DNA of 64,000 nt, taken from contig NZ_CP144555.1 of assembly GCF_036607905.1 (NCBI RefSeq), forward strand, positions 930,001-994,000. Reading direction: 5' to 3'. Under the pieces are notes generated by a model, which worked only from the letters and a program-made list of their open reading frames with translations, made no database searches and was not told the DNA's origin. Every line of letters begins with the position of its first letter. The stretch's first letter is position 1. The position numbers were made by a program, and so were the translations under genes. This DNA is from Streptomyces sp. SCSIO 75703. Its GTDB lineage: Bacteria; Actinomycetota; Actinomycetes; Streptomycetales; Streptomycetaceae. Below, piece by piece: positions 1-64,000 of this stretch.

Positions 1-756
1 CACCACCGACACCTCGGCACCCAGCCCCTCCAGCCCCTCCACCAGCACATCCACGCCGGGAGCATCCGGCCCACGACGCCCCGCCAACACCAGACGCCGC
101 ACCCCCCGCACCTCCACCAGATGCCGGGCCACCAGACCACCCAGACCACCCGTACCACCCGTCACCAACACCACACCATCCGGCACCACGTCGGCGACAG
201 CCGAAGCCCCCACCTCCACCAGACGCGGAACCAGCACCTCACCACCCCGCACCGCGACCTCAGGCTCACCCGACGCCAACACAGCCGCCGCCACATCCCC
301 GAAGACCCCACCCCCAGGATCCACATCCACCAGCACAAACCGACCCGGATTCTCCGCCTGCGCCGCCCGCACCAGACCCCACACCGGAGCCTGGCACACA
401 TCCACCCCCTCCCCCTCACCCACCGACACACCACCACGCGTCACCACCACCAACGGACCCTCACCCTCAGCCCGCAACCACCCCTGAACCGCCTCCAACA
501 CCCCACCCAACACCGACCGCACACCCCGCACCGGATCCACACCCACCGACAACAACGGCACCTCGAACACCGCCGGCACCACAGCAGACCCAGACCCAAA
601 CCCAGACCCAGACACAGACACAGACACAACAGCCTCAGACACCGAGGCAGACGCAGAGACAGACGCAGAGGCAGACGACCCCAAAGGCCGCCACACCACC
701 TCATGCAGACCACCCACCCCAGCCGAACCACCCAACTGCCCCACCGACACCGGACG
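1..756. repeat. KR-linker tract shared with PKS B, copy in PKS F
   Basis: Near-identical to 39224-39973 from the KR nucleotide-binding fold back to the DH-KR linker; the match may continue past the window edge. The two differ in length within a Ser-Ala/Ser-Val coding repeat at about 595-675. Confidence 0.85.
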
Positions 757-3700: not shown

Positions 3701-4317
3701 GCCTGCGCCGCCAGGTGCAGGGCGACCAGCGACGACGAACAGGCGGTGTCCAGCGTCATCGAGGGCCCCTCGAAGCCGAAGACGTACGAGACCCGGCCGG
3801 AGGCGATGGAGCCCGTGGCGCTGTTGTGCTGGTAGTCGTGGTACATCATCCCGGCGAACACACCGGTCTTACTGCCCTTCAGGGTGGTCGGGTCGATTCC
3901 CGCCCGCTCGAACACCTCCCACGAGCATTCCAGCAGGAGCCGCTGCTGCGGGTCCATGATCAGAGCCTCGTTCGGGCTGATGCCGAAGAAGGCCGGGTCG
4001 AACATGTCCGCGGCGTGCAGGAACCCGCCCTGGTTGACGTAGCTGGTGTTCTGTCGTTCGCCCTCCGGATCGTAGAGGTCCTCGACGTTCCAGCCGCGGT
4101 TCCCGGGGAATGCGGAGATGGCGTCCACGCCGTCGTCCACCAGCTTCCACAGGGCCTCAGGGGACGCGACGCCTCCCGGGAAGCGGCAGCTCATCGACAC
4201 GATCGCGATGGGCTCGCGGGCCACGGAAGACAGCTTCCGGTTCTGAGCGCGCAGACGGTCGTTCTCCTTGAGCGACGCCCGCAGCGCGGCGACAAGCTTC
4301 TGCTCGGAATTACTCAT
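1..4317 (-). CDS. Type I PKS, module 10 (KS-AT-DH-KR...), cut by left window edge
   Basis: This is the N-terminal 1439 codons of a modular PKS; the frame is open to base 1. An N-terminal docking helix ([16 protein letters not shown]) precedes KS, with active-site Cys in TACSSSL near residue 188. AT carries GHSVG near 650 and HAFH near 750, the malonyl-CoA signature. DH has His in [12 protein letters not shown] near 953 and Asp in [13 protein letters not shown] opens with GGTGGLG near 1390, and the window ends inside its Rossmann fold, so KR type, ACP and any later module are unseen. The ATG lies 8 bases after the PKS E stop. Its docking helix matches that of PKS B, and PKS E ends in the same tail type as PKS A, which supports the E-to-F handover. 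Much of the KS end, AT and KR linker is near-identical to PKS B, C and E. Confidence 0.93.
1528..3474. repeat. Homogenised KS-end/linker/AT tract, copy 1 (PKS F)
   Basis: This stretch is near-identical at DNA level to 7108-8966, 27878-29795 and 40828-42640, and in part to 51876-52728. It covers the DH start junction, AT, KS-AT linker and the KS C-terminal third. The left end of the match to copy 3 extends to about 1528. Ends are by eye. Confidence 0.85.
2814..2825. repeat. CACCAG hexanucleotide run, 2 units (PKS F)
   Basis: Encodes the Gly-Ala run of the KS-AT linker. Equivalent runs in the other tract copies are longer. Confidence 0.9.
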
Positions 4318-4325
4318 CGGGGCTC

Positions 4326-15080
<10,755 letters not shown>

Positions 15081-15128: not shown

Positions 15129-19979
<4,851 letters not shown>

Positions 19980-20079
19980 CTGTACCTCTACCAATCTCGG
20001 AGCGTGCGTCAGCGGTGCCGGGTGGGAGCCGGTGCCGTGGCCGGCCGTGTGCGAGGGGGTGGTGCGTGCCGCGGGGGCG

Positions 20080-30696
<10,617 letters not shown>

Positions 30697-31260: not shown

Positions 31261-31497
31261 ATGTGGGATGAGCAGTTCGACATTCTCCTGCGGAAGCAGC
31301 TTTCCTTTCTTCCGCCGGGCGAGCCGATCACCGGCGACATGCGGCTGCGCGATTTCGGACTCGATTCGCTCGGCATGATCGAGCTGCTCGCGGGGCTCGA
31401 ATCCGCCTACGCCGTCCACTTCCGCGATGAGGCGCTCTCCCTGGAGATCTTCGAGACGCCGGACGCTCTCTGGAACTCGCTGCAGCGCCTGCGCTGA
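31261..31497 (+). CDS. Free-standing acyl carrier protein for the beta-amino acid starter (VinL-like)
   Basis: The 78-residue protein is one ACP fold with the phosphopantetheine Ser at residue 36 in the motif FGLDSLGM. Its length is normal for a discrete carrier. In the vicenistatin route the equivalent, VinL, carries 3-methylaspartate, the decarboxylated 3-aminoisobutyrate and then the dipeptide made by VinM, before transfer to the first PKS. Here the ACP heads a plus-strand run with the transposase relative (11 bases downstream) and an adenylating enzyme, while the mutase, decarboxylase and first ligase lie some 29 kb away. The family call is firm; the substrate is inferred from neighbours. 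Confidence 0.88.
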   Translation: MWDEQFDILLRKQLSFLPPGEPITGDMRLRDFGLDSLGMIELLAGLESAYAVHFRDEALSLEIFETPDALWNSLQRLR

Positions 31498-31508
31498 GGG
31501 CCGCGACC

Positions 31509-32570
31509 ATGCGACGCGTCCCGACGCTGTGCCTGCGGGAGGGTGACCGAGCACGTCTGGAGACGCTCACCCGTATGACGACCGCGCCCGCCGGTCTCGT
31601 GCGGCGGGCGCGGATCGTCCTCCTCGCCGCGGACGGCGTCTCCAACACGGAGATCGCCGCCGCGCTGCGGGTCTCCCGCCCCACGGTCATCAAGTGGCGT
31701 GCCCGCTATGCGGAGTCGGGGATGGCCTCACTGGGTGACCTGCCGCGTCCGGGCCGTCCTTCGACGGTGGACGAGGTGGCGGTCCTGGTGGCCACGCTCG
31801 CCGACGGTGGTACGCCGCCGGCCCGGTTGCGGGCCCGGTACTGGACGTCGCGGCTGCTGGCGGGTGAGTTGGGGATCGCCCACTCCACGGTCTCGCGCGT
31901 GTGGCGCAAGTGGAGCGTGCAGCCCCGGCGTCCCGAGTCCTTCCAGTTGCCCGCCGTCCCGCCGCTGGGCCCCGGCGCCCAGCGCGGTGTCGTCGGGGTC
32001 TGTCTCACTCCGCCGTGGAACGCCGTGGTGCTCAGGGCGGACGACGGGCACGGCTCCCGGACCGAAGAGCGGCTCCGGCCACTGCTGTTCGGTCGTACCC
32101 GGCCGGGGACCTCCCGGGCGTACGCCCTGCCCGCCTTCCTGAACTTCCTGAACGCGGTCGCCCGGACGCACCCCTATCCGCGACTGCACGTCCTCACGGA
32201 CGGGGAGGGCCCCGCGCCTTCCCGGGAGGTGCGGGCGTGGCTGGCGAGGAACCCGCAGGTCACCCTGCACCACGCGCCGGCCGGCTGTCGCTGGAGCGAT
32301 CTCGCCGAAGTCCTGCTGCGGGTCGGTGGCCCGGCGGCCACGCTCCACGGTGCGTTCACCAGCGTCCCGGCTCCGGGCCTTTCACTGCACGCCCTGGTCG
32401 AGGCCCAGTCTCCGCACGTCCTGACCGAGCCCCGTCGAAGCTCCCGGCACGGGCCTCTCGTCCTGGGGTCCGGCGAGGGGCTCGCGCGCGACAGGAACAG
32501 CTCCACCTCACTCATCCACCGCCACCCGGGGACCACTCATGGACCAGACACCGGCCCACGCCCTCTATGA
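31509..32570 (+). CDS. IS630/Tc1-type transposase relative, probably domesticated or decayed
   Basis: The 353-residue protein begins with two helix-turn-helix units (about 15-75, with VSNTEIAAALRVSRPTVIKW, and about 85-137), as in IS630-family proteins. A shortened DDE-like domain follows: an acidic pair at 178-179 (NAVVLRADDG), Asp231 (LHVLTDG) and Glu267 (RWSDLAE). The second and third acids are 36 residues apart, near the family norm. Only about 50 residues separate the first two acids, whereas I recall roughly 85-90 in intact IS630 proteins; the strand that normally reads like GTTTLFAAL is missing. I see no terminal inverted repeats or target duplication. It starts 11 bases after the ACP stop, and its last 32 bases overlap the next gene, so it is built into the operon. 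It may serve as a DNA-binding protein. Loss of transposase activity is inference. Confidence 0.75.
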   Translation: MRRVPTLCLREGDRARLETLTRMTTAPAGLVRRARIVLLAADGVSNTEIAAALRVSRPTVIKWRARYAESGMASLGDLPRPGRPSTVDEVAVLVATLADGGTPPARLRARYWTSRLLAGELGIAHSTVSRVWRKWSVQPRRPESFQLPAVPPLGPGAQRGVVGVCLTPPWNAVVLRADDGHGSRTEERLRPLLFGRTRPGTSRAYALPAFLNFLNAVARTHPYPRLHVLTDGEGPAPSREVRAWLARNPQVTLHHAPAGCRWSDLAEVLLRVGGPAATLHGAFTSVPAPGLSLHALVEAQSPHVLTEPRRSSRHGPLVLGSGEGLARDRNSSTSLIHRHPGTTHGPDTGPRPL

Positions 32571-34095
32571 CCGTTTCCTGCGCGGACTCGCGCGGTCACC
32601 CCACGGAGTGGCGATTCGCGCGAACGGCACGGCGCTGACGTACCAGGAGCTGTACGACCGGGCGCTGACCTGGGCGGGCTCGCTGCTGGCCGCGCTCCCG
32701 GAGCGCCCCGCGGCGGTGGGTGTGCTGGCGGGCAAGAGTGTCGACGCGTACACGTCCATCCTGGCCTGCCTGTTCACCGGGGTGCCGATGGTGCCCTTGC
32801 AGCCTTCCTTTCCCGTGCTCCGCACCCGTCGGATGCTCGAAGCCGCCGGCGTCGAGGCGCTGATCGTGGACGGCGAGGCCGCCACGGTACTGGGAAAGCT
32901 GCGCGCGGACGGGGTCGCCCTTCCCGCGCTGCTGGACGGGGACGGCGACGATCCGTCCGGCGAGGGGCTGATCGCGCCGGATCCGGCGCGGCGCCTGCCG
33001 CGTCCCCACCCGGTCGCGGCCGACGACATCGCCTACGTGCTGTTCACCTCCGGGTCGACGGGCCGCCCGAAGGGGGTACCGGTCACGCACGCCAACGGCG
33101 CCCACTACTTCGGTCTGCTCGACGAGCGGTACGACTTCGGACCCGACGACGTGTTCTCGCAGAACTTCGACCTCAACTTCGACTGCGCGATGTTCGACCT
33201 GTTCTGCGCGTGGGGGGCGGGCGCCACACTGGTGGCCGTGCCGGCGGCCGCCTATCGGGATCTGCCCGGGTTCGTCGCCGAGCAGGGCATCACCGTGTGG
33301 TTCTCCACCCCCAGCGTGGTCGGCCTGCTCCGGCGCACGGGCGGACTGACGGACGGCGCGCTGCCGTCCCTGCGCTGGAGCTTCTTCGCCGGTGAGGCGG
33401 TGACGTGCCAGGACGTGACGGACTGGCGGCACGCGGCGACGGGGTCGGTGGTCGAGAACCTCTACGGGCCCACGGAGCTGACCATCACCATCACCCGGCA
33501 CCGCTGGTCGTCCGAGTCCTCGCCTCGGATCGCGGCCGCGGGTGTCGTACCGATCGGGCCGGTGCACGCGGGCCACGCGTGGCTGTTGCTCGGCGCGGAC
33601 GGGGAACCGGACCCGGAGGAGGGTGAGTTGTGCGTCGCCGGTCCGCAGCTCATGGCCGGCTACCTGGACCCGTCCGACGACGTGGGCCGGTTCCTGGAGC
33701 GGGAGGGCACGCGCTACTACCGGACGGGCGACCGGGTCCGGCTGGGCCGGGACGGCCAGTTGCTCTACCTCGGACGGCTGGACCAGCAGGTCCAGGTGCG
33801 GGGCGTGCGCATCGAACTCGCGGAGATCGACGAGGCGTTGCGCCACTGCCGGGGGGTGGACGACGCCGTGACGGTGCCGCTGCCGTCCGAGCAGGGCATC
33901 AGCCTGGCGGCGTTCCACACCGGGGACCGCGTCCCGCCGGTCACCCTGGCCCGCGAGCTGAGCCGCACGCTCCCCCGGGCCGTGCTCCCCCAGCACTTCT
34001 TCCACCTCGCGGAGTTCCCTCTCAACGCCAACCGGAAGATCGACCGCCGAGCCCTGCTGCGTCGCGCGCTCGAGTTGCTCGACGACGGGCACTGA
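32539..34095 (+). CDS. Stand-alone amino acid adenylating enzyme (VinM-like capping ligase)
   Basis: The 518-residue ANL-superfamily enzyme has the A3 loop FTSGSTGRPKGVPVTH (about 173-188), an Asp in NFDLNFDCAMFD near 210-220 at the usual amine-binding place, NLYGPTE near 311, YYRTGDRVRLG near 394, and the C-terminal catalytic Lys in NANRKIDRR near 503. It has no attached carrier domain. VinM of the vicenistatin pathway adds alanine to 3-aminoisobutyryl-VinL, masking the amine until cyclisation. Position beside the ACP, and a second ligase beside the decarboxylase, suggest this one is the VinM equivalent. The ATG follows GGGGA at good spacing and overlaps the upstream gene by 32 bases. The amino acid used cannot be read from the sequence. 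Confidence 0.82.
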   Translation: MDQTPAHALYDRFLRGLARSPHGVAIRANGTALTYQELYDRALTWAGSLLAALPERPAAVGVLAGKSVDAYTSILACLFTGVPMVPLQPSFPVLRTRRMLEAAGVEALIVDGEAATVLGKLRADGVALPALLDGDGDDPSGEGLIAPDPARRLPRPHPVAADDIAYVLFTSGSTGRPKGVPVTHANGAHYFGLLDERYDFGPDDVFSQNFDLNFDCAMFDLFCAWGAGATLVAVPAAAYRDLPGFVAEQGITVWFSTPSVVGLLRRTGGLTDGALPSLRWSFFAGEAVTCQDVTDWRHAATGSVVENLYGPTELTITITRHRWSSESSPRIAAAGVVPIGPVHAGHAWLLLGADGEPDPEEGELCVAGPQLMAGYLDPSDDVGRFLEREGTRYYRTGDRVRLGRDGQLLYLGRLDQQVQVRGVRIELAEIDEALRHCRGVDDAVTVPLPSEQGISLAAFHTGDRVPPVTLARELSRTLPRAVLPQHFFHLAEFPLNANRKIDRRALLRRALELLDDGH

Positions 34096-34259: not shown

Positions 34260-35852
34260 ATGACAGAAAACAAGCCCCGGGCGGGGATCAAGGAATGGCT
34301 CGGCCTCGTGGTGATCGTCCTGGTCACCCTGCTGATCGCCGTTGACATCTCGGTACTCGGTTTCGCGCTCACGCCCATCAGCGAGTCGCTGAAGCCGAGC
34401 GCCACCCAGCTGCTGTGGATCATGGACACCTACAGCTTCGTGCTGGCCGGCGCGCTGATCACGATGGGCTGGGTGGGCGACCGGTTCGGCCGCCGCAAGC
34501 TCCTGATCATCGGCGCCCTGGTCTTCGGCGTCGCCTCCGCGATCGCCGCGACGGCGGAGAGCGCCGAGATGCTGATCGGCGCGCGGGCCCTGCTGGGGCT
34601 CGGCGCCGCGACGCTGACGCCGACCTCGCTGGCCCTGATCCGCAACATGTTCCAGGACTCGAAGCAGCGCAAGTCCGCCATCGCGGCCTGGAGCGCCACG
34701 CTCGCCACCGGGGCGGCCCTCGGCCCGGTCGTCGGCGGCCTGCTGCTGAACCACTTCTGGTGGGGCTCGGTCTTCATGATCAACATTCCGGTGATGGTGC
34801 TGGTGCTGATCCTGGCCCCGATCCTGCTCCCGGAGCGGCGCGACTCCTCCCGCGGCAAGCTGGACGTACTCGGCGCGGTCCTGTCGATGGCCGGCATCAT
34901 GCCGTTCATCTACGGCCTCAAGGAGCTGGCCGTGGACGGCTGGGCCCGCGACTCCGCGATCTGGGCCGCCGCCGGCGCCGTCCTGCTCGTCGCCTTCGTG
35001 CAGCGCCAGCGCACGTCGCCCCACCCGCTCATCGACGTCTCGCTGTTCCGCTACGGCGGCTTCACCGGGGCGATCCTCACCAACCTGATGGTGATGTTCT
35101 CGTTCATGGGCGTCAGCATCCTCACCAACCAGTTCCTCCAGATGGTGCTGGGCATGACCCCGTTCCGGGCGGCCCTGTGGTCCATGGCCGTGATGCCCGC
35201 GATCGGCATCGCGGTCGGTCTCGTCTCGGCCCTGTCCCGCAAGATCAAGCCGGTCCACCTGGTCGCCGGCGGCATGCTCACGATGGCCGTCGGCTTCGGT
35301 GTCCTGAGCCGTCTCACCGTGGAATCGAACGTCGCCCTCCTGCTCACGGGCGTGGGTCTGATGGCGGCCGGCATGACCGCCTCGAAGACGCTCACGGCGG
35401 AGATCGTGGTCACCTCGGCGCCGAAGGAGCACGCCGGGTCGGCCACGGCCACCTCGGAGACCTTCACCGAGTTCGGCAGCGCGTTCGGCTTCGCGGTCAT
35501 CGGCAGCATCGGTTCCGCCATCTACCGGCATGACATGAACGCGGTAAGTCCGGCCGGTCTCGGCGGCGAGGCGCTGGGCGCGGTGCGCAACACCATCGGC
35601 GGTGCCCACACCATCGCCTCCCAGCAGCCGGCCGCGATCGCCGCCGAACTGCTCTCCGCGAGCCGGGCTGCGTTCACCCACGGTCTCCAGGTGGCCGCGC
35701 TCTCCGGGGCCGCCGCCATGGTCGTGGTGGCCGCGATCGTCGCGATGCTGCTGCGCAAGGTGCCGATCGAGACGGGTGAGCGGGTCGACCCGTACGACAT
35801 CGACGCACCGGCGACCGTCCCCGCCTCGGGACACGTGCAGTCCACCGTCTGA
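34260..35852 (+). CDS. DHA2-family MFS exporter, 14 transmembrane segments
   Basis: The 530-residue membrane protein resembles the EmrB/QacA proton-driven drug exporters. The first helix is near residue 15 (LVVIVLVTLLIAVDISVLG), a GDRFGRRK loop follows helix 2 near residue 75, and a motif-C-like segment (ALGPVVGGLLL) is near 155. Length and hydrophobic pattern fit 14 helices. It probably exports the macrolactam and gives self-resistance. It is the last gene of the plus-strand run, 164 bases after the ligase, with the nested palindrome in that gap, so it likely has its own repressed promoter. The ribosome site is poor: AGGAAGG lies about 17 bases ahead of the ATG, and no better in-frame start is seen. 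It converges with tetR on a shared terminator. Confidence 0.9.
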   Translation: MTENKPRAGIKEWLGLVVIVLVTLLIAVDISVLGFALTPISESLKPSATQLLWIMDTYSFVLAGALITMGWVGDRFGRRKLLIIGALVFGVASAIAATAESAEMLIGARALLGLGAATLTPTSLALIRNMFQDSKQRKSAIAAWSATLATGAALGPVVGGLLLNHFWWGSVFMINIPVMVLVLILAPILLPERRDSSRGKLDVLGAVLSMAGIMPFIYGLKELAVDGWARDSAIWAAAGAVLLVAFVQRQRTSPHPLIDVSLFRYGGFTGAILTNLMVMFSFMGVSILTNQFLQMVLGMTPFRAALWSMAVMPAIGIAVGLVSALSRKIKPVHLVAGGMLTMAVGFGVLSRLTVESNVALLLTGVGLMAAGMTASKTLTAEIVVTSAPKEHAGSATATSETFTEFGSAFGFAVIGSIGSAIYRHDMNAVSPAGLGGEALGAVRNTIGGAHTIASQQPAAIAAELLSASRAAFTHGLQVAALSGAAAMVVVAAIVAMLLRKVPIETGERVDPYDIDAPATVPASGHVQSTV

Positions 35853-35936: not shown

Positions 35937-36698
35937 TCAGGTCAGGGGCTCCTCGCCGTCGCGGGTCCGCACGAGCACCTCGACCCCGTCCAGCACGCGT
36001 TGGAGGCCGAAGGCGAAGTCGTCCTCGGGCTCCTCGAACGCCCCGGCCTCCAGCAACTCCGCGAGCGCGGGGAAGGAAGCGGAGTCGACGTACTTGGCCA
36101 ACGCGCGCACGTAGTTGGCCATCAGGTCCTCCTCGCTGACGCCATGGGTGACCACGCCGAGCGCCAACTGCACGTTGTTGCGGACGTAGCCGATCATCAG
36201 CATCATCACGGAGAGCTTCTCGTCCGGCCTCAGGCTCGTGCCCCCCAAGGTGCGCAGGCCGCACTCCAGCCAGCTCAGCTGGCCTGGCTCCAGGGGCGGG
36301 CCACTGACCGAGATCTGGAGCATCCACGGGTGCCGGCGGAAGACCTCCTGGAAGGCGCGGGCCCACTGCTCCAGGCCGGCCCGCCAGTCCCCCTCCACCA
36401 TGTCGATGTGCGGCGGGGTGCCGTAGGCCATGTCCAGCATCAGCTGGCACAGCTCGTCCTTGCTCGACACGTGCCGGTAGAGCGACATGGTGCCGAAGTC
36501 GAGGCTCTTGGCGACGCGGGACATCGACAGCCCGGCCAGACCGTCGGCGTCCGCGGACTCGATGGCGGCCGCCACGATCCGCTCGACGCTCAGTCCGATC
36601 CGCGCGGTGCGCTGTTCGCGGTTACGCAGCTCCCACAGCACCTCGATACTGTTCGGCAGGCCAGCGCCTTCCTTGCTCGTTCCTTCACCAGTACTCAT
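35937..36698 (-). CDS. TetR-family repressor, likely controlling the exporter
   Basis: The protein is 253 residues when started at the ATG at 36698 (MSTGEGTSKEG). A GTG at 36743 would add 15 residues but would overlap the candidate operator. The N-terminal helix-turn-helix spans about residues 38-85 (LSMSRVAKSLDFGTMSLYRHVSSKDEL), and the C-terminal helical domain (GDWRAGLEQWARAFQEVFRRHP onward) is of the TetR class C-terminal type. Such proteins repress an exporter gene until the drug or an intermediate binds. The nearby exporter has a compound palindrome in its promoter, and a related half-site lies ahead of this gene, which suggests control of both. Confidence 0.88.
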   Translation of the reverse strand: MSTGEGTSKEGAGLPNSIEVLWELRNREQRTARIGLSVERIVAAAIESADADGLAGLSMSRVAKSLDFGTMSLYRHVSSKDELCQLMLDMAYGTPPHIDMVEGDWRAGLEQWARAFQEVFRRHPWMLQISVSGPPLEPGQLSWLECGLRTLGGTSLRPDEKLSVMMLMIGYVRNNVQLALGVVTHGVSEEDLMANYVRALAKYVDSASFPALAELLEAGAFEEPEDDFAFGLQRVLDGVEVLVRTRDGEEPLT

Positions 36699-36728
36699 CT
36701 CGTGCCTGTCTTCATCGGAAGCCTTCCC

Positions 36729-36747
36729 ATGCGTATGACGCACGCAT
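36729..36747. promoter_or_regulatory. Candidate autoregulatory operator upstream of tetR
   Basis: Arms ATGCGT (36729-36734) and ACGCAT (36742-36747) are exact reverse complements, 7 bases apart. Within them, 36731-36745 reads GCGTAT-GAC-GCACGC, sharing the left half-site and the 6-3-6 layout of the exporter operator; the right half matches at 4 of 6 positions. It lies 33-47 bases ahead of the chosen tetR ATG. The rest of the 313-base gap up to the reductase gene (36699-37011) holds a 14-base palindrome GCGATCCGGATCGC (36934-36947) and a terminator hairpin; I see no gene in it. Confidence 0.5.
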
Positions 36748-37011: not shown

Positions 37012-38214
37012 TCAGACGCCTGCCGCCGCGGCGGCGAGTTCGGACGACGGAAGGCCGACCAGGAGCCTGCACCGCCGCAGGCCGCGCGCGCTGTTCCAGC
37101 CCAGCGCGCCGACCAGCATCCCGCCCCGGTGATACGCCGCGACGAACTCCCGGTCGGCCGTCGACCCGCTGATGATCTCCGTCCGCGCGTCCGGCGGGCA
37201 CCAGCCGATGGTCTGGATCTTCGCCCCGAACTGCTGGGTCCAGCCGAACGGCACCGGCGCGTACGGCCGGCCGCCGGCGTCACCCGCGAGCAGGTTGGAG
37301 ACGACCGCCATGGCCTGCTGGGAGGCGTTGGTCCGCTGTTCCAGCCTGACCCGGGCCCCGGCCAGCATCGAGTGGGGCCAGTTGGCGACGTCGCCGGCCG
37401 CCCATACGCCGGGGGCGGCGCGACAGTAGGCGTCACACAGGACGCCGTCGCCCAGCGCCAGTCCGGAGTCGGCGAGCCAGTCCACGGCCGGGACGGAGCC
37501 GATCGCGACGACGACCAGATCGGCGTCGATCCGGGTGCCGTCGGCCAGCAGGACGGCGCGGACGTCACCCCGGTCCTGGGCCGTGCCCACGACCTGGGCA
37601 CCCAGGACGAGCCGTACTCCGTGGTCCCGGTGCAGGCCGGCCACCAGTTCGCCGATTCCGGCGCCCACCTGGCGCTCGAGGGGCTGGTCGTGGGCAGCGA
37701 TGAGGGTCACGTCGAGCCCGGCCTCACGGGCGGTGGCGGCGATCTCCGTACCAAGGAATCCGGCCCCGATCACCGCGACTGTGGGTGCCGTTGCGAGCGC
37801 CCGGCGCAGGCGGACGGCGTCGTCCAGCGAGCGGAGCACGTGGATGCCCCGCAGGCCGTCCCCGTACGGAAGCCGGCGCGGGCGGAGTCCGGTCGCGATG
37901 ACGGCCGCGTCGTAGGGCAGCCGCTCACCGGTGGAGAGGGTGACGTGCCGGGCCGCCTGGTCCAGGCCGGTGGCCCGGCAGCCGAGACGCAGATCGACGT
38001 CGACGGCGGCGAGCGCGTCCTCCTGGCGCAGCCAGGTGCTCGACGGCTCCCACCTCTCGCCCAGCAGCTCTTTGGACAGGGGCGGCCGGTCGTAGGGCGG
38101 ATGGCGCTCGGCACCGACGAGTGTCAGGCCGCCCTCGTACCCCTTGGCCCGCAGCGTCTCCACCGCGGTCAGCCCTGCGGCCGCCGCGCCCACGACGACT
38201 ATCCGGTTCAGCAC
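37012..38214 (-). CDS. FAD-dependent NAD(P)H-ferredoxin reductase
   Basis: The 400-residue protein has two dinucleotide folds: an N-terminal FAD loop (IVVVGAAAAGLTAVETLR, about 5-22), an NAD(P)H loop (VAVIGAGFLGTEIAATARE, near 145), and a second FAD contact GVWAAGDVANW near 270. This is the layout of putidaredoxin/rhodocoxin-type reductases, which pass electrons through a ferredoxin to a cytochrome P450. Start is GTG at 38214, chosen because GAGGAG lies at 38220-38225. It sits 28 bases after PKS B and is probably cotranscribed. No P450 or ferredoxin gene is visible, so its partner must be outside the window. A tailoring oxidation of the macrolactam is inferred. Confidence 0.9.
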   Translation of the reverse strand: MLNRIVVVGAAAAGLTAVETLRAKGYEGGLTLVGAERHPPYDRPPLSKELLGERWEPSSTWLRQEDALAAVDVDLRLGCRATGLDQAARHVTLSTGERLPYDAAVIATGLRPRRLPYGDGLRGIHVLRSLDDAVRLRRALATAPTVAVIGAGFLGTEIAATAREAGLDVTLIAAHDQPLERQVGAGIGELVAGLHRDHGVRLVLGAQVVGTAQDRGDVRAVLLADGTRIDADLVVVAIGSVPAVDWLADSGLALGDGVLCDAYCRAAPGVWAAGDVANWPHSMLAGARVRLEQRTNASQQAMAVVSNLLAGDAGGRPYAPVPFGWTQQFGAKIQTIGWCPPDARTEIISGSTADREFVAAYHRGGMLVGALGWNSARGLRRCRLLVGLPSSELAAAAAGV

Positions 38215-38242: not shown

Positions 38243-41200
38243 TCATGCCCATGCCTCGGCCCCGCCGTCGAGAATGTCGAACAGCTCATCCGCGGTCGCC
38301 GCGCTCAGGTCGTCTGGGGATGCGTCCTCGCCGAAGAGCGTCAGCCTCAGGTGCGTGGCGAGCTCGGCGGCCGAGGGGTAGTCGAAGATCAGGGTCGGCG
38401 CGAGCCGGCAGCCGGTGACCTCGTTGAGCCGGTTCCTGAGTTCCAGCGCGGTCAGCGAGTCGAAGCCGATGTCGAGGAATCCCCGCTCGGCCGCGATGTC
38501 TTCGGCACCGGAGTGACCGAGGACGGCGGCGGCGTGACCGCGTACCAGGTCCAGCAGGGCCCGTTCACGGTCCTCGGTGCTCAGTCCCGTGAGGCGGGCC
38601 ACCAGCGCGGCGGGGTCGGAGCCCTTGGTGCGGGTGCGCTCCACGGTCCTGCCCTCTGTGGGCACCATGTCCCGCAGGAACGCGTGCAGTTCGCCGGGCT
38701 TGGCCCTGAGTGCCGGTACGTCGACGGCGAGGGGCACGAGCGCGGCGCGACCGGAGTCGATTCCGGCGTCGAAGAGGCGGAGGGCGTCGGCGACACCGAG
38801 CGCGGGGAGACCGCGCGCCGCCATGAGGCGGACGTCCTCGTCGAGGGCTTCGGTCAGTCCGGTGGCGACGTCCCACAGGCCGTAGGCGAGCGAGGTGGCG
38901 GGCAGACCCAGCGAACGCCGATGCACGGCAAGAGCGTCCAGGAACACATTGGCCGCCGCATAGTTGGCCTGCCCCGCCGCGAGAACCGAACCCCCCGCCG
39001 ACGAGAACATCACGAAGAACGCCAGATCACGCTCACACGTCACCTCATGCAAATACCACGCCGCATCAGCCTTCGGCCCCAACACCCCATCCAGACGCGA
39101 CACGTCCATCGACCCGATCAGACCATTGTCACCCGCACCCGCCGCATGAACCACACCCACCAGATCCGCACCCACACCCTCCACCAACGCCGCGACCGCA
39201 CCACGATCCGACACATCACAGGCCACCACCGACACCTCGGCACCCAGCCCCTCCAACTCCCCCACCAGCACATCCACGCCGGGAGCATCCGGCCCACGAC
39301 GCCCCGCCAACACCAGACGCCGCACCCCCCGCACCTCCACCAGATGCCGGGCCACCAGACCACCCAGACCACCCGTACCACCCGTCACCAGCACCACACC
39401 ATCCGGCACCACGTCGGCGACAGCCGAAGCCCCCACCTCCACCAGACGCGGAACCAGCACCTCACCACCCCGCACCGCGACCTCAGGCTCACCCGACGCC
39501 AACACAGCCGCCGCCACATCCCCGAAGACCCCACCCCCAGGATCCACATCCACCAGCACAAACCGACCCGGATTCTCCGCCTGCGCCGCCCGCACCAGAC
39601 CCCACACCGGAGCCTGGCACACATCCACCCCCTCCCCCTCACCCACCGACACACCACCACGCGTCACCACCACCAACGGACCCTCACCCTCAGCCCGCAA
39701 CCACCCCTGAACCGCCTCCAACACCCCACCCAACACCGACCGCACACCCCGCACCGGATCCACACCCACCGACAACAACGGCACCTCGAACACCGCCGGC
39801 ACCACAGCAGACCCAGACCCAAACCCAGACCCAGACACAGACACAACAGCCTCAGACACCGAGGCAGACGCAGAGGCAGAGGCAGAGGCAGACGACCCCA
39901 AAGGCCGCCACACCACCTCATGCAGACCACCCACCCCAGCCGAACCACCCAACTGCCCCACCGACACCGGACGGAAGGTCAGGCCACCGATCGTGGCCAC
40001 CGGTGAGCCATCCTGGTTCGCCAGGCTCAGCGTGCGGCCGTTGACGCCCTGGGGCGAGATCCGAACCCGAAGCGCGCGGGCACCGGCGGCATGCAGGGAA
40101 ACGTTCGTCCAGGAGAAGGGCAGCTCGGTCGGTTCGTCGCCCGTGACGTCCTCGCCGACTCCCAGGGCGTGCATGGTGGAGTCGAGGAGAGCGGGGTGCA
40201 GACCGAAACGCTCGGCGTCGGCATGCGCCTGCTCGGGCAGTTCGACCTCGGCGAAGATGTCGTCCCCGCGCCGCCACACGGCTTTCAGCCCCTGGAAGAC
40301 GGGCCCGTAGGCGTAGCCCTGCTTCCGGAGCAACGCGTAGGAGTCCTCGGTCCGTACGGTTTCGGCGCCCGGTGGGGGCCATGCGCTGAGGTCGAAGGCC
40401 GGCGCCGCCTGAGCCGAACCAGCGCCCAGCACACCATCCGCGTGGAGCACCCACTCGGCCCCCGCACCACCACTCTCCGGCCGCGAATGCACCCGCACCG
40501 AACGAGACCCCACCTCGTCCCGACCACCGACCACCACCTGCAACGCCACCCCACCACGCTCCGGAAGCACCAACGGAGCCTGCAACGTCAACTCCTCCAC
40601 CACCCCACAACCCACCTCATCAGCAGCCCGCACCACCAACTCCACAAACGCCGCACCCGGCAACAACACCGAACCCAGCACATCGTGATCCGCCAACCAC
40701 GACATCCCCTCCACCGACAACCGACCCGTCAACACCACACCACCCGAATCAGGCAACGCCACCGCCGCACCCAAAACCGGATGATCCACCCCCACCTGAC
40801 CCAGCCCACCAGCATCCCCAGCACCCACCGACTCCAGCCAGTACCGCTCACGCTGGAACGCGTAGGTCGGCAGATCCACACGCCTGGCACCCGAGCCGTC
40901 GAAGTACCGGGCCCAGTCGACCCCCACCCCCGCCACATGCAACTCACCGAGAGCGGAAACCACCGTCGGCACCTCGTCACGGCCCTTACGCATCAACGGA
41001 ACGAACAGCGCGGACTCCGACTCCGTCGACTGCCGTGCCATCGCGCTCAGCACACCATCCGGACCCACCTCGACGAACGACGTCACACCACGCGACTCCG
41101 CGAACGCCACCGCGTCCGCGAACCGCACCGCCTCCCGCACATGCCGCACCCAGTACTCCGCCGAACCCCAATCCTGCGATACCTCACCCGACACCCCCGA

Positions 41201-43543
41201 CACCACCGGAACCGAAGCAGCACCGAACGACAACCCGGCCACCACCTCACCGAACTCCGCCAGCATCGGCTCCATCAACGGCGAATGAAACGCATGCGAC
41301 ACCCGCAGCACACTCGTCCGCCGACCCCGCCCCTCGAACACCGCCACCACACCAGAAACCGCGGCCTCCGCACCCGACACCACCACCGAACGCGGACCAT
41401 TGACCGCCGCGATCCCCACCCCCGCACCCAGCAACGGAAGCACCTCAGCCTCCGACGCCTCCACCGCCACCATCACCCCACCCGCCGGCAACCCCTGCAT
41501 CAACCGCCCACGAGCCACCACCAACACAGCCGCATCCCGCAACGACAACGCACCCGACACATGCGCCGCCACAACCTCACCCACCGAATGACCCACCAGG
41601 AAGTCCGCACGCACCCCCCACGACTCCACCAACCGGAACAAAGCCGTCTCCACCGCGAACAACCCCGCCTGCGCAAACAACGTCCCACTCAACAAACCCG
41701 CGTCCGCACCCCACACCACCTCCCGCACACCACACCCCAACAACGCATCCAACTCCGCGACCACACCATCAAACGCCGCCGCGAACACCGGAAACGCCCC
41801 ATACAACTCCCGGCCCATCCCCAACCGCTGCGCACCCTGCCCCGTGAACAGAAACGCCGTCGCCCCCGCCGGCCGCACCACCCCACGCACCACCGACACA
41901 TCCCGCACACCCCCCGACAACGCCCCCAGCCCCCGCACCAACCCCTCACGGTCCGCCGCCACCACCACCGCACGATGCTCCAACACCGCACGCGACACCA
42001 CCGATGAAAACCCCACATCCACCAAACCAACACCAGCACCAGCACCAGCACCAGCACCAGGAACCGGCTCTTCCAACCCCTCCAGCCGGTCCAGCAACCG
42101 CGCCGCCTGACCCGACAAACCACCCCCACACCGCGCCGACAACACCACCGGAACCACCGGCAAACCCAGGCCCTCATCCTCCGCCGGGTCCTCTTCCACC
42201 ACCGGGGCCTGCTCCACGATCACGTGCGCGTTCGTCCCACTCAGACCGAACGACGACACCCCCGCACGCCGCGGACGACCCCGGTCCGGCCACACCCGCG
42301 ACTCCGTCAACAACTCCACCGACCCCGACGCCCAGTCCACCTCCGGCGTCGGCACATCCACATGCAACGTCTTCGGCAGCACCCCATGACGGATCGCCTG
42401 CACCGCCTTGATCACACCACCCACACCCGCGGCCGCCTGCGTATGCCCCAGATTCGACTTCAACGACCCCAGCCACAACGGATCGCCCACCCGACCCTGC
42501 CCATACGTCGCAAGCAACGCCTGCGCCTCGATCGGATCCCCCAACCGCGTCCCCGTACCATGCGCCTCCACCAGATCCACCTGATCCGACGAAACCCGCG
42601 CGTCCGCCAACGCCGCGCGGATCACCCGCTGCTGCGACGGACCGTTGGGGGTGGTCATGCCGCTGGAGGCACCGTCCTGGTTGATCGCGCTGCCCCGGAT
42701 CACGGCGAGCACCGGGTGGCCGTTGCGCTGGGCGTCGGAGAGGCGTTCCAGCATCAGGACGCCGACGCCTTCCGAGCAGCCGGTGCCGTCGGCATGGGCG
42801 GCGAAGGACTTGCACCGGCCGTCCTTGGCCATGCCCCGCTGGTGGCTGAAGTAGAGGAACATGTCCGGCGTCGTCATCACGGTCACGCCACCGACCAGCG
42901 CCATCGCGCAGTCGCCCTTGCGCAGTGCCTGGCCGGCCCAGTGGAGGGCGACGAGCGAGGACGAGCAGGCGGTGTCGACGGTGACGGCGGGGCCCTCGAG
43001 GCCGAGGGTGAAGGCGACGCGGCCGGAGACCAGGCTGCCGTCGCTCGTTCCGGGCCCGTAGTCGTGGTACATGACGCCGGCGAAGACGCCGGTCCGGCTG
43101 CCCTTCAGCGACAGCGGGTCGATCCCCGCGCTCTCCACGGCCTCCCAGGACGTCTCCAGCAACAACCGCTGCTGCGGATCCATCCCCAACGCCTCACGCG
43201 GTGAGATACCGAACGCACCCGCGTCGAAATCAGCCGCGTCGTACAGGAACCCACCCTCACGCGTCACCGTGCGGTTCGGCTTCCCCGGCTCCGGATCGTA
43301 GATCCCGTCCACGTCCCAGCCACGATCCACCGGAAACGCCGACACCCCGTCCCGGCCCTCGACCACCAGATCCCACAACTCGTCCGGAGAAGCCACCCCA
43401 CCCGGATAACGACACGCCATCCCCACGATCGCGATCGGCTCGCCGGCGTCCTGGGTGAGGCGGTCGTTGTGCGAGCGGAGGCGTTCGTTCTCGACCATGG
43501 CCGCCCGGAGGGCGGCGACGAGCTGCTCTACAGATGCTTCCAT
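38243..43543 (-). CDS. Type I PKS, module 4 (KS-AT-DH-KR-ACP)
   Basis: This is a single-module PKS of 1766 residues. The N-terminal docking helix is [16 protein letters not shown], unlike the DYLxxxTADL helices of PKS C-E. KS Cys is in TACSSSL near 193; AT (GHSVG near 653, HAFH near 751) is malonyl-type; DH has [12 protein letters not shown] near 951; KR has GGTGGLG near 1389, Ser in MFSSAGG and Tyr near 1527, but GDN in place of LDD. ACP Ser is in GFDSL near 1696. The tail [13 protein letters not shown] is the acidic type expected to dock onto PKS C. The ATG is 8 bases after the PKS A stop, and GAGG (43550-43553) overlaps that stop, a coupled arrangement. Expected product is another alkene in the polyene. 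Much of KS, AT and the KR linker duplicates PKS F and PKS C. Confidence 0.95.
39224..39973. repeat. KR-linker tract shared with PKS F, copy in PKS B
   Basis: Partner of 1-756; the simple repeat within it lies at about 39826-39895. Confidence 0.85.
40828..42640. repeat. Homogenised KS-end/linker/AT tract, copy 4 (module 4)
   Basis: Same tract as copy 1, from the AT-DH junction to the KS C-terminal third of PKS B. Differs from the others by scattered single bases and one small patch near 41169 (codons for SQDWG instead of SEGWG). Confidence 0.85.
42031..42060. repeat. CACCAG hexanucleotide run, 5 units (module 4)
   Basis: Same linker position as in PKS F, with three more units. Confidence 0.9.
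43058..43444. repeat. KS N-terminal tract, copy in module 4
   Basis: Partner of 30211-30597. Confidence 0.85.
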
Positions 43544-43551
43544 GATGTTCC

Positions 43552-59910
<16,359 letters not shown>

Positions 59911-59915
59911 CTGCA

Positions 59916-59919
59916 CTCC
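59916..59919 (-). promoter_or_regulatory. Ribosome binding site deciding the PKS A start
   Basis: GGAG on the minus strand lies 5 bases ahead of the ATG at 59910 and favours that codon over the GTG at 59925. The 111-base gap between the mutase E stop and this start is the only break in the otherwise overlapping starter-gene run, so an extra promoter for PKS A may lie there; I cannot point to its hexamers. Confidence 0.6.
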
Positions 59920-60021
59920 ACACACTTGTCGCCCGTCGCTGGACGGAAGTCACCAAGAAACCGCAGCACTTGCGGGTCACGCTATGAAGGCGAAAGGCCG
60001 CGCACAGCCCCTATCGCCCCC

Positions 60022-61407
60022 CTAAGACCTCTTCTGCCGTCCGCCGGACGGAAACGCCCGGTATCCGGCCGGGCCGATGCCCGCACCGTCGGGGTCCGGG
60101 GCCTGCCCGGCTCCCCTCGCCCGCTGGTCGAACGCCCTCTGTACGTAGGAGAGATCGGCGAGCAGCCCCGCCGAGGTGACCTCCCGGGCAGGGGCCCGGT
60201 CCACGAGCCCGCCCAGGGGCAGCCGCCCGATGCCGGCCCAGCGCAGTCTCCCGTCGCCGTCGATGTAGCTGCGGGCCCGGCCGTGGTTGTCCGGGTGGAG
60301 ACAGTAGGGGATGTCCAGGACGCCCTGTCTGAAGGCGAGCCCGAGAGCGCGTCCGATGTCCGGGGCCAGTTCGAGTACGCCCTCGACCAGCGCCCTGGCC
60401 TCCAGGTACGTCTGCGAGTCGGCTTCGGCGGGGACCGCGCCGGCGGGTGGGCCGCTGCGGGCGGTCCGGGCCGCCGACTCCAGCGCGGCGACGTTCTCCG
60501 CGACGGTCGGGATCCGGCGGGACTCCGCCACCGTCTTGACGATGAGCCGCTCCGAGCCGGAGTCCACCGCGAGGCGGGTCGCCTGGTCGAGCAGCAGGTA
60601 GGCGCCTTCCTCCGTGGTCGGGTAGACGCCCATGTAGGCGTAGATGACCACGTGCCAGTTGGGCGTGGGAAGCAACTCGCCGCACAGCCGCCGCAGCGCC
60701 GCGACCGCTTCCCGGTCCTGCTCCGGGTGGGTCTGCTGGGCGTAGCTGAGCGAGACGCTGCGCATTCCGTGCTGACAGAAGAACAGCGCTTCGAGGACGC
60801 TGATCGCCACCAGTTGGCTCGGTGGGCACAATTGGCCGAGCATGCATCCGCCGAATGTCTCCAGATGCGGTTCCACACCGGATTCCCGCAGCAGGGCGAA
60901 ATCCTCGGTGCAGCGCACCCAGTTCCGTACGGACTCGTCCAGCGGAGTACGTCCGTAGGGGAGGCAGTACGAGACGGGGCCGCCCTCGGTGGCGTTGATC
61001 AGCGTCCTGCGCAGCGCGGTGAAGATGTCGTGGGGGACGGCCGATCCGTGACGGACCTGCACCGGGAACGTCTCGTCCCGGATGCCGGCCAGCACCTGCC
61101 CGGTCACGGCCGGGTCGTAGCTGACGATGGGGTAGCCGTTGAGATCGGTCCCGGCGCGCAACGCGTCCTTTACGGAGCCGAGTTCACCGATCCGGGTGTA
61201 GCTGTCGAGGGTCAGGGTGCCGACCGTCGCGGCGTTGGCGGCACGGGTGGCGGCCAGCCCGGCGCGCATGGTGCCGGGGTCGCTGAACCCCATGCGGGGT
61301 TGCACCACCAGCTCCCCTGACCGGCGTCGGGCTCGTACGAAGGCTCCGAAGTCCACCGGGCGCGCCCCCTCGGCCGGCCGCCGGGACAGGCGCGCGCCCG
61401 GTCTCAC
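60022..61407 (-). CDS. Glutamate mutase (methylaspartate mutase) large E subunit, VinI-like
   Basis: The 461-residue protein matches the TIM-barrel subunit of B12-dependent glutamate mutase. Recognisable segments include VQPRMGFSDPGTMRAGLAA (about 31-49), the substrate-side stretch VRHGSAVPHDIF, GGPVSYCLPYGR, LETFGGCMLGQLCPPSQLVA and SVSLSYAQQTHPEQD. It rearranges L-glutamate to (2S,3S)-3-methylaspartate, the precursor of the 3-aminoisobutyrate starter. I chose GTG at 61407 because it overlaps the S-subunit stop as GTGA and keeps the conserved N terminus. A longer frame upstream only runs opposite to the S subunit's sequence logic. TAG stop at 60022-60024. Confidence 0.92.
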   Translation of the reverse strand: MRPGARLSRRPAEGARPVDFGAFVRARRRSGELVVQPRMGFSDPGTMRAGLAATRAANAATVGTLTLDSYTRIGELGSVKDALRAGTDLNGYPIVSYDPAVTGQVLAGIRDETFPVQVRHGSAVPHDIFTALRRTLINATEGGPVSYCLPYGRTPLDESVRNWVRCTEDFALLRESGVEPHLETFGGCMLGQLCPPSQLVAISVLEALFFCQHGMRSVSLSYAQQTHPEQDREAVAALRRLCGELLPTPNWHVVIYAYMGVYPTTEEGAYLLLDQATRLAVDSGSERLIVKTVAESRRIPTVAENVAALESAARTARSGPPAGAVPAEADSQTYLEARALVEGVLELAPDIGRALGLAFRQGVLDIPYCLHPDNHGRARSYIDGDGRLRWAGIGRLPLGGLVDRAPAREVTSAGLLADLSYVQRAFDQRARGAGQAPDPDGAGIGPAGYRAFPSGGRQKRS

Positions 61408-61904
61408 GCCACGACCTCGGTGCGCTGCGGGGAGCGCCTGCCCGTGGGCAGTGCGCCGACGAACCGGCTGAATGCCCGTGTGGCGGTCGACGCGTCGTCG
61501 AAGACGGCGTCGAACCCGGCGGTGAGCAGTTCGTCGATCGCCGCGTCGCTCTGCTGCCCGGCGACGCCCAGCTTGCCGCCGATGACCACCGGGGTCGCGG
61601 CGAGTTCCGCGCAGGCGCGCAGGGCGCCGATGACGCGCTGTCCGTCCTGGTGGCCGTGGCCGTTGACGCTGCTGATCGCCACCAGGTCGGGCCCGACCTC
61701 CCGGCAGACGTCCACGAGGACCCGGTCCGGCACGCACGGGCCCAGGTTGATCACCTCGTAGCCCAGTTCCTCGACGAGCAGTTGGAGGAAGACGAGGTTC
61801 CAGGTGTGGGAGTCGGAGGCCACGGTCGTGACGACGACGGTGCCGCGCCGGCCGTCGACCGGGCGCACGGCGCCCGTGGGGCGGTGGCTGAGGTCGGCGC
61901 TCAT
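61404..61904 (-). CDS. Glutamate mutase small S subunit, B12-binding, VinH-like
   Basis: The 166-residue protein has a Rossmann-like cobalamin-binding fold: VVVTTVASDSHTWN (the cobalt-binding His in D-x-H), ISSVNGHGHQDG in the middle and VIGGKLGVAG toward the end. It carries adenosylcobalamin and pairs with the E subunit made from the next gene. In the usual D-x-H-x-x-G motif the last position is Asn here; relatives in antibiotic clusters may share this, which I could not check. The ATG overlaps the decarboxylase stop as ATGA and the stop overlaps the E start, so subunit synthesis is coupled. Confidence 0.92.
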   Translation of the reverse strand: MSADLSHRPTGAVRPVDGRRGTVVVTTVASDSHTWNLVFLQLLVEELGYEVINLGPCVPDRVLVDVCREVGPDLVAISSVNGHGHQDGQRVIGALRACAELAATPVVIGGKLGVAGQQSDAAIDELLTAGFDAVFDDASTATRAFSRFVGALPTGRRSPQRTEVVA

Positions 61905-63163
61905 TCGGCTGCTCCCGTGACGGTGCGGGCGGACGGTTCGTCCACGGCCGCGTAGCTGCGGCTGTGCTCGATCCGGGAGACGGACAGCACCGTGTCGCCC
62001 CGGACCACGACCTCGACGGGGGCCGGGCGCCCCAGGAACATCAGCAGGCTGGCGGTCGGCCCGTACGCTCCGGCGTTGGGAATCGTCACCAGGTCGCCGG
62101 GGGCGAGCGCGGGCACGTCGATCTCGCGGCCGAGGATGTCACCGGGGGTGCACAACGGGCCCACCAGGGTGGCCGATTCGACGCACTCCCCCGTTTCGGG
62201 GCCGACGGCGACCGGCAGCAGGCGGCCGAGGCCGGACATACCGCCGAAGGTGTTGATGCCCGCGTCGAGGATGACGAACCTGCGGCCCCGGCTGACCTTG
62301 ATGTTGCTGACGGAGGCGACCAGGGTGCCGCTCGCTCCGACGAGGTAGCGGCCCGACTCGCAGGCCACCTCGGGGCCGTCGGTGCGCCACCGCGGGAAGT
62401 GGGTGTCCAGTGCGTCCGCGAGTTCGCCGCGCAGTCCGGGGTACGAGCCCCGGCTGCCGGGCACGGCGTACGGCACCGCGAAGCCGCCGCCGATGTCGAG
62501 GAAGCGCAGGGGGAGGTCCAGTTCGCGCTGGAGGCGGGCGGCCAGCTCGATGGTGTGCCGGAACTCGCCGACCAGGCTGTCCTCGTCCTTGGCGTTGCTC
62601 AGCGGGAAGAAGTGCATCCCGGCGACGCGGACACCGTCCACCGTCCGCAGTTCGGGCAGGATGTCGGCCAGCGTCTCGCTGTCGAAGCCGAACTGCGAGG
62701 GCGTGCCGGTCATCCGGATGCTGCTGGTGGCGCTGGCCGTGGCGCTGTTGACGCGCAGCAGGCAGTCGGCGCTCACACCGTGCGCCAGGGCGGCGTCGGC
62801 GACATGGCGGACGTCGGAGACGGAGTCGGTGGAGAAGAGGCGGACGCCCCGGCGGATCGCCTCGTCCAGTTCACCGGCGGTCTTGCCGGGGCCGGTGTAG
62901 AGGCAGTCGGCGCCGTCGAAGCCCGCGGCGAGGGCGGACTCCAGCTCGCCGGTGGAGCTGATCTCGGGCCGGCAGGGGCGGCCCTCGCCCTCCCGCAGCG
63001 CCCGGACGAGGCCGGGATGGGGGTTGGCCTTGAGGGCGTAGAAGAGGGTGAACTCCTCGGGCAGCGCGTCGAGAAGCTGCTGTCTGGCCGCGTCGATCTC
63101 GTCCAGGTCGTAGACGTACAGCGGTGTGCCGAAGCGTTCGGCCAGTGCCTTGTAGCGGCTCAT
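61901..63163 (-). CDS. PLP-dependent decarboxylase, fold type III (VinO-like)
   Basis: The 420-residue enzyme belongs to the ornithine/diaminopimelate decarboxylase group. Lys45 in FYALKANPHPG is the PLP-binding lysine; DIGGGFAVPY is the phosphate loop; ESGRYLVGASG replaces the usual EPGR; CTPGD supplies the active-site Cys/Asp from the partner subunit; NAGAYGP holds the C-terminal Tyr. In the vicenistatin pathway VinO decarboxylates 3-methylaspartyl-VinL to 3-aminoisobutyryl-VinL; the gene order here supports the same role. Start is ATG at 63163, overlapping the ligase stop by four bases. Action on an ACP-bound rather than free substrate is inferred from the homologous route. Confidence 0.9.
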   Translation of the reverse strand: MSRYKALAERFGTPLYVYDLDEIDAARQQLLDALPEEFTLFYALKANPHPGLVRALREGEGRPCRPEISSTGELESALAAGFDGADCLYTGPGKTAGELDEAIRRGVRLFSTDSVSDVRHVADAALAHGVSADCLLRVNSATASATSSIRMTGTPSQFGFDSETLADILPELRTVDGVRVAGMHFFPLSNAKDEDSLVGEFRHTIELAARLQRELDLPLRFLDIGGGFAVPYAVPGSRGSYPGLRGELADALDTHFPRWRTDGPEVACESGRYLVGASGTLVASVSNIKVSRGRRFVILDAGINTFGGMSGLGRLLPVAVGPETGECVESATLVGPLCTPGDILGREIDVPALAPGDLVTIPNAGAYGPTASLLMFLGRPAPVEVVVRGDTVLSVSRIEHSRSYAAVDEPSARTVTGAAE

Positions 63164-64000
63164 CTCTCTTCCCCGTCGATCATCTCGGCCAGGACCTGCC
63201 GGGCGTTCTTCCCGTGCAGGCTCAGCGGCAGTTCGCCCAGGACCCGGCACAGGGCGGGCACCTTGGCCGGCTCGAGGCGCTCGGCCAGCTCCTTCAGGAC
63301 GGTGTGCGGGGCGAGTTCGGTCTCGGCGAAGACGATCAGGTCGTGGGTTTCGGTGGGCGGCAACGCGGTGGCGGTGCGCACACCGGGGATGTCCATGGCG
63401 GCGGCCTCGATCTCGACCGTGCTCATCCGGATGCCCTTGCGCTTGAACATGTCGTCGCGACGGCCCTCGAAGTAGAGGTAGCCGTCCTCGTCGAGCCGGC
63501 CGTAGTCGCCCGTGTGGAGCCGGAGGGCCCCGGTGGCGGGGTCGCGGCGGAAGGTGCGCGCGCTCAGTTCGGGGCGGCGCCAGTAGCCGGGCATGACGTG
63601 CGGTCCCACGGCCACGATCTCGCCGGTCTCGCCGGCCGGGAGGGGGCGGCCCTCGGCGTCGAGGATCAGGACCGTGGTACCGGGCAGCGGCAGGCCCACC
63701 GAGTGGGGACGCTCGTGCTCCTGCCCGGGCGGCATGATGGTGACGCGCTTGCACTCGGTCTGCCCGAACTGGCGGACCACCCGCGCGCCGGGGAACGCCT
63801 CGCGCAGCGCGGTGACCGCGTGGGCGGGCAGGGCGGCGCCGGTGTTGGTGAACATCCTCACCGGGGGCGGGTCCTGGGTGTCGCGCCGGGCGAGGGAGCC
63901 GATCATCGTGGCCAGTGAGGGGACGATGGGCACCACGGTGGTGCCGGTCTCGCGCATGCGCCGCAGCAGGACGAGGTCGGACTCGCCGCCGTCCAGGACC
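63160..64000 (-). CDS. Adenylate-forming ligase for the starter amino acid (VinN-like), cut by right edge
   Basis: Only the C-terminal 280 codons are present; the frame stays open to 63999, so the start lies outside. ANL motifs are FGQTECKR (A5), LHTGDYGRLDEDGYLYFEGR (A7 into A8), RKGIRMSTVEIE and the C-terminal catalytic Lys in SLHGKNARQ. VinN activates 3-methylaspartate and loads it on VinL; here the gene is fused by overlap to the decarboxylase and mutase genes, fitting that role. The specificity residues of the first half are missing, so the substrate is inferred from context only. It is the first visible gene of the minus-strand starter/PKS A-B unit. Confidence 0.85.
   Translation of the reverse strand, partial: VLDGGESDLVLLRRMRETGTTVVPIVPSLATMIGSLARRDTQDPPPVRMFTNTGAALPAHAVTALREAFPGARVVRQFGQTECKRVTIMPPGQEHERPHSVGLPLPGTTVLILDAEGRPLPAGETGEIVAVGPHVMPGYWRRPELSARTFRRDPATGALRLHTGDYGRLDEDGYLYFEGRRDDMFKRKGIRMSTVEIEAAAMDIPGVRTATALPPTETHDLIVFAETELAPHTVLKELAERLEPAKVPALCRVLGELPLSLHGKNARQVLAEMIDGEER

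Follow-up and report, generated by a model that had tools for sequence, protein, structure and literature searches.

A macrolactam gene cluster of apparent piceamycin/bombyxamycin/weddellamycin type in Streptomyces sp. SCSIO 75703 and the transposase-like gene that it carries

Macrolactams with 26-membered rings that are started from 3-amino-2-methylpropionate are already known (PMC10662134), and polyketide synthase (PKS) clusters of 11 modules have been published for the bombyxamycins, piceamycin and weddellamycin. The weddellamycin assembly line consists of a loading module and 11 further modules, with a YASH motif in the acyltransferase (AT) of module 8, a ketoreductase (KR) without its tyrosine in module 6 and no dehydratase (DH) in module 7, and its tailoring enzymes are a cytochrome P450, a ferredoxin and an isomerase (PMC11051340). 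In piceamycin and weddellamycin a further ring closure leaves a 23-membered lactam (PMC7889971, PMC11051340), and for weddellamycin, a C27 macrolactam, an m/z of 432.2166 and minimum inhibitory concentrations of 0.10-0.83 ug/mL against Gram-positive bacteria have been reported (PMC11051340). The subject of the present analysis is a stretch of 64,000 nucleotides from Streptomyces sp. SCSIO 75703 (the window), which corresponds to C1:930001-994000 of a 6.89-Mb single-contig genome; coordinates with the prefix C1 are those of that contig, all others those of the window. The window very probably holds the starter end of a complete cluster of the piceamycin/bombyxamycin/weddellamycin type. In this way a complete cluster of an antibacterial and cytotoxic macrolactam class is placed in a finished genome, and ten further clusters of the same type are set alongside it for comparison. 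The cluster type is already known, and the original prediction, a vicenistatin-type starter pathway on an assembly line long enough for a larger macrolactam, was right on both pathway and size. The only unexpected feature of the cluster is a transposase remnant that has been kept between two of the starter genes.

Assembly line and starter genes

The set of genes and their order, the number of modules, the motifs of the AT and KR domains and the homologies are shown directly by the genome. The assembly line is encoded on the minus strand by six PKS proteins, here called A to F, with 11 ketosynthase (KS) domains (three in A, one each in B and D, two each in C, E and F), ten of which lie in the window, where at least ten modules had been counted. 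PKS A (43552..59925; 5457 amino acids) contains, according to Pfam and motifs, a loading acyl carrier protein (ACP) and modules 1-3, each built as KS-AT-DH-KR-ACP. The loading ACP (approximately 59551..59808, recognised from its PP-binding stretches) stands alone at the N-terminus with the motif GLDSV, and neither KS nor AT precedes module 1, which bears out the bare-ACP loading module that had been proposed. The same evidence places module 4 in PKS B (38243..43543) and modules 5 and 6 in PKS C (20080..30696). The KR of module 6 (approximately 20830..21350), the second of PKS C, is inactive by its motifs: GGTGxxG is replaced by GDLSARG, YxxxN is absent and the catalytic tyrosine is gone. PKS D (15129..19994) carries module 7 as KS-AT-KR-ACP, with a PKS_DE match and no DH family, and PKS E (4326..15080) carries modules 8 and 9. 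Ten AT motifs read HAFHS and one, that of the first AT of PKS E (AT8), reads YASHS, the methylmalonyl type. The first part of PKS F (1..4329; Pfam, motifs) comprises module 10 up to its KR, and the gene extends beyond the window to C1:922912 with module 11 and a thioesterase (TE). Eleven modules point to a 26-membered macrolactam precursor (one nitrogen, three starter carbons and 22 further atoms), larger than the 20-membered vicenistatin ring as had been argued.

The starter block adjoins the assembly line on the same strand. It comprises MutE, the glutamate mutase E subunit (60022..61407; Pfam Met_asp_mut_E, E 4.9e-76; glutamate mutase 1cb7_B, E 1e-30), MutS, the S subunit (61404..61904; B12-binding domain; 1be1, E 4e-6), a VinO-type pyridoxal phosphate-dependent decarboxylase (61901..63163; Orn_Arg_deC families), assigned from family and neighbourhood only, and a VinN-type 3-methylaspartate ligase with an AMP-binding domain. 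The ligase gene is cut at the window edge (3' part 63160..64000) and is whole in the genome, from C1:993160 to about 994695. The four genes overlap by 4 bases each, as originally noted (the junctions read ATGA, ATGA and GTGA), and the run from mutase into PKS holds as to strand and adjacency, not as to contact: MutE stops at 60022 and PKS A starts at GTG 59925 or at an ATG five codons later, which leaves a gap of about 100 bases and no overlap. The best solved relative of the ligase is 3wvn (E 1.7e-193), in the alignment with which the segments SWD and ECKR are kept and FTNT stands where 3wvn has FTNS; these three segments have a role in the binding of 3-methylaspartate. The structures 3wvn, 8k4r, 5czc, 5czd_B and 3wmr are presumably Vin proteins, the depositors' names for them being generic. 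For MutS the expected motif is DxHxxG, and the DxHxWN of this MutS was dropped as a possible oddity because it is the norm: among 77 loci with a MutS match it is full in 73, partial in three and absent from one.

The distant free ACP and second adenylating enzyme of the original prediction are present on the plus strand, 26-29 kb from the mutase block, as a VinL-type ACP (31261..31497; 5czd_B, E 1.9e-24) and a VinM-type protecting amino acid ligase (32539..34095; 8k4r, E 4.1e-189). Two more counterparts lie beyond the window, namely that of VinK (VinK_C family, E 4.5e-32; solved-structure match 5czc, E 1e-130) and that of VinJ, a peptidase of the proline-iminopeptidase family after PKS F (3wmr, E 3.5e-143). 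With these two, every Vin starter protein has a counterpart here, a combination far outside what chance would give, and the vicenistatin-type starter can be regarded as confirmed at the level of genes.

Relatives and alternative assignments

Several points weigh against assignment to the piceamycin/bombyxamycin/weddellamycin type. The match to the bom (Streptomyces sp. SD53), pic and wdl (DSS69) clusters rests on their described architecture. The piceamycin producer AmelAP-1 has a cluster of 12 modules (PMC7889971), and the product is therefore not fixed by module count. The related clusters G164 and G012 share the gene order and have 11 KS each, but G012 carries a split first PKS, and RKAG290 has only 10 KS in the listed frames, which are broken around the expected module 10. 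On the reading of the mutase genes themselves, the scores against the NCBIfam methylaspartate mutase equivalogs stay well below the cut-offs (MutE 138 bits against 390, MutS 60 bits against 110), as would fit a distant branch.

The alternative that survives best, although it is improbable, is a product whose ring departs from those of all known piceamycin-type compounds, reached through an extra module elsewhere or through module skipping. Weddellamycin itself arose from a cluster resembling that of piceamycin (PMC11051340), and the 12 modules of AmelAP-1 indicate that end products can leave the simple reading (PMC7889971); in the present cluster, however, a single gene region encodes all 11 modules together with the TE, and the AT, KR and DH choices match the published line. 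A cluster of the sceliphrolactam/streptolactam type is slightly more improbable still. Sceliphrolactam shares the 3-amino-2-methylpropionate starter and the 26-membered ring, yet its sce cluster has 10 modules with another split between genes, two methylmalonyl ATs (modules 3 and 8), two P450s and only KRs predicted to be active, and the sce gene table contains neither an isomerase nor a transposase beside the ACP (PMC5785472). The cluster studied here has 11 modules, a single methylmalonyl AT, one KR that is dead and a single P450 among the annotated open reading frames (ORFs). The sceliphrolactam type was rejected on module count, AT specificities, KR6 and P450 count. The cluster stretches of S. 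filamentosus, CB01881 and Kutzneria 744, checked for a loss of the dead-KR module 6 in the sce line, were not sce-like within their partial coverage.

A scan with MutE, of which the best 80 of 98 loci were kept, places the mutase genes among their relatives, VinO and VinN being called where both reached 55% or more. Both are present in 17 of the 80 loci, and among the 63 without them five have a decarboxylase at 34-38%. The seven closest loci, all from named Streptomyces genomes and with the genes in the same order as here, belong to RKAG290, S. laculatispora, S. poriferorum, S. atratus JCM 3386, A0642, 130 and ATexAB-D23, with identities of 80-87% for MutE, 74-80% for MutS, 83-92% for VinO and 82-91% for VinN; five of them also have the P450 (92-94%), the isomerase (77-83%), VinK (86-92%) and a carboxyltransferase (91-92%), and the contigs of the other two end at VinN. 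Elsewhere MutE identity does not discriminate (62-70% in the ten remaining loci with VinO and VinN, 46-69% in the 63 without). The original prediction had named lipopeptide methylaspartate pathways as the place where the closest homologues might lie instead; all seven closest loci carry VinO and VinN. A lipopeptide pathway of the nonribosomal peptide synthetase (NRPS) type lying by chance beside a PKS is hardly credible: the 63 of 80 loci without close VinO and VinN speak for it, as does a weak, NRPS-adenylation-like ligase match in 42 of those 63, whereas the present cluster has VinO, VinN, VinL, VinM, VinK, VinJ and the loading ACP, and the nearest mutase loci share VinO and VinN. A lipopeptide origin of the mutase genes was rejected, with VinO and VinN adjoining the mutase. 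As a separate observation, several PKS frames of the RKAG290 cluster (stretches L124-L127) are interrupted, by sequencing error or by real decay.

The transposase-like gene between VinL and VinM

VinL and VinM are separated by a degenerate transposase gene of the IS630 type (31509..32570, plus strand), which encodes 353 amino acids and overlaps VinM by 32 bases at its 3' end. The protein matches the IS630 model with 102.1 bits against a cut-off of 100, the best stretch being model positions 1-119 of 299, the helix-turn-helix (HTH) half; the HTH is conserved and the catalytic part is degenerate. A homologue stands between VinL and VinM in all seven closest relatives (59-72% over the aligned stretch) and in G172, G164 and G012, which with the own copy makes 11 of 11 clusters of this type. 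Among 392 sampled genomes of the genus, 50 contain a VinM relative at E <= 1e-150 and six, own genome included, the isomerase at 67% or more. Thirty VinM loci from this sample were checked and 21 further VinM matches were left out: six have the transposase-like gene, and it was not found at the 24 others, where VinL adjoins VinM. The cluster type was also defined independently of the transposase-like gene, by the isomerase, and the six genomes picked out in this way are the ones that carry that gene beside VinM.

Relatives of the gene that occur in several copies without VinL or VinM, three in G086 and two nearly identical ones in G307, look like live insertion sequences. In one copy from each and in a paralogue of the own genome the residues D, D and E are kept, and 82 residues separate the first D from the second. 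Of the 11 cluster copies, six have a broken triad and five, the own copy included, an aligned intact one; the spacing is 50-52 residues in nine (52 in the own copy), and in G164 and G012 there are 113 and 91 residues of other sequence. No terminal inverted repeat end was found at up to 6 mismatches of 20 within C1:960001-965000. The cluster copies form one clade with an ultrafast bootstrap of 99 in a tree of 14 sequences; tree and triad count omit the own-genome paralogues L095 and L097, which had been read in a wrong frame. The ratio of nonsynonymous to synonymous substitution (dN/dS; Nei-Gojobori) was taken as the mean of 35 pairs from nine clusters, which are not independent; G164 and G012 were left out, as was the pair L098/L114 because its DNA is nearly identical. 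It is lowest in the HTH half (0.18), rises to 0.39 in the middle and to 0.87 in the tail, and comes to 0.32 over the whole gene, compared with 0.20 for VinM and 0.11 for VinL.

By these values the HTH half is under purifying selection, and the pattern fits a domesticated DNA-binding protein. It is proposed tentatively, with somewhat less than even confidence and from sequence comparison, that in the ancestor of the piceamycin-type clusters an IS630-type element was inserted between VinL and VinM, that its catalytic core and repeats then disappeared and that it was domesticated, the HTH half, encoded in line with VinL and VinM, now serving as a DNA-binding protein, probably a regulator of the cluster, perhaps at the divergent promoter of PKS C and VinL. 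The rival explanation is slow decay of a gene that is retained only through its frame overlap with VinM; the low dN/dS of the HTH half speaks against it. If the remnant turns out to act as a regulator, the cluster would offer a clear example of how an insertion sequence can become a component of an antibiotic pathway. In their main texts, PMC11051340, PMC7889971 and PMC10662134 do not mention transposase, helix-turn-helix or IS630, and PMC5785472 mentions neither transposase nor helix-turn-helix (the supplementary tables and the bombyxamycin papers lie outside this statement); literature searches on such a transposase remnant returned nothing relevant.

In the divergent promoter region that PKS C and VinL share (30697-31260), TAGGGGTA and TAGCGTC are found in 11 of 11 aligned clusters and TGCCCACCCCT in 10 of 11; these conserved blocks are candidate regulator sites. 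A further conserved block, CTAGCGTC-like, resembles the repeat start of the presumed live copies (CTAGTGT), but it was not used as a repeat remnant because the match is too short and too weak.

Proposed biosynthesis and comparison with known systems

All chemical steps, the order in which the PKS proteins act and the identity of the product are inferred, and for the starter the mechanism described in a review (PMC11284099) served as the model. MutS and MutE would convert glutamate to 3-methylaspartate, which VinN would load on the free ACP VinL and VinO would decarboxylate to 3-aminoisobutyryl-VinL. An amino acid added by VinM would then cap the amine, and VinK would pass the product on to the bare loading ACP. 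Extension by eleven modules on six PKS proteins would add ten malonyl units and one methylmalonyl unit (module 8), and modules 6 and 7 would leave a ketone and a hydroxyl, respectively. The cap would be removed by VinJ and the 26-membered lactam closed by the terminal TE, after which the P450, the ferredoxin and the TIM-barrel isomerase may carry out oxidation and possibly a second ring closure as in piceamycin.

The tailoring genes lie past the starter end of the window, the order upstream of VinN being ferredoxin (C1:994974-995168; Fer4_13, E 2.4e-11), which sits between the P450 and VinN, then the P450, the isomerase and VinK. Between the ferredoxin gene and VinN a 9-base unit is repeated in tandem, in 12.7 copies with 98% matches (C1:994773-994886; stretch L011, 1773-1886). 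Past VinK, the plus strand carries the carboxyltransferase, a type II thioesterase and a LuxR regulator; a TetR gene on the minus strand lies between the thioesterase and the LuxR gene. The carboxyltransferase (stretch L011, 5776-7398) adjoins VinK and is conserved in five of the seven relatives, the contigs of the other two stopping earlier; it was not found within the fetched stretches of G164 and G012, and it might supply malonyl- or methylmalonyl-coenzyme A. Within the window, VinM is followed by a major facilitator superfamily transporter (34260..35852, plus strand; MFS_1), a TetR regulator of the same type as WdlO (35937..36743, minus strand; TetR_N, TetR_C_1) and a ferredoxin reductase (37012..38214, minus strand; Pyr_redox_2, Reductase_C).

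With vicenistatin the cluster has in common the complete starter set and the bare loading ACP (PMC11284099). It differs in having 11 modules, where the vicenistatin ring requires eight, and in the transposase-like gene by which VinL and VinM are parted; sugar genes do not appear among the annotated ORFs of the window and its flanks, though no search was aimed at them. The likeness to the weddellamycin, piceamycin and bombyxamycin clusters extends from the loading ACP, the 11 modules in six PKSs and the same starter enzymes (PMC11051340, PMC7889971) to the details of the line, that is YASH in AT8 and HAFH in the other ATs, an inactive KR6 and no DH in module 7, and further to the P450, the ferredoxin, the isomerase and a set of one LuxR and two TetR regulators.

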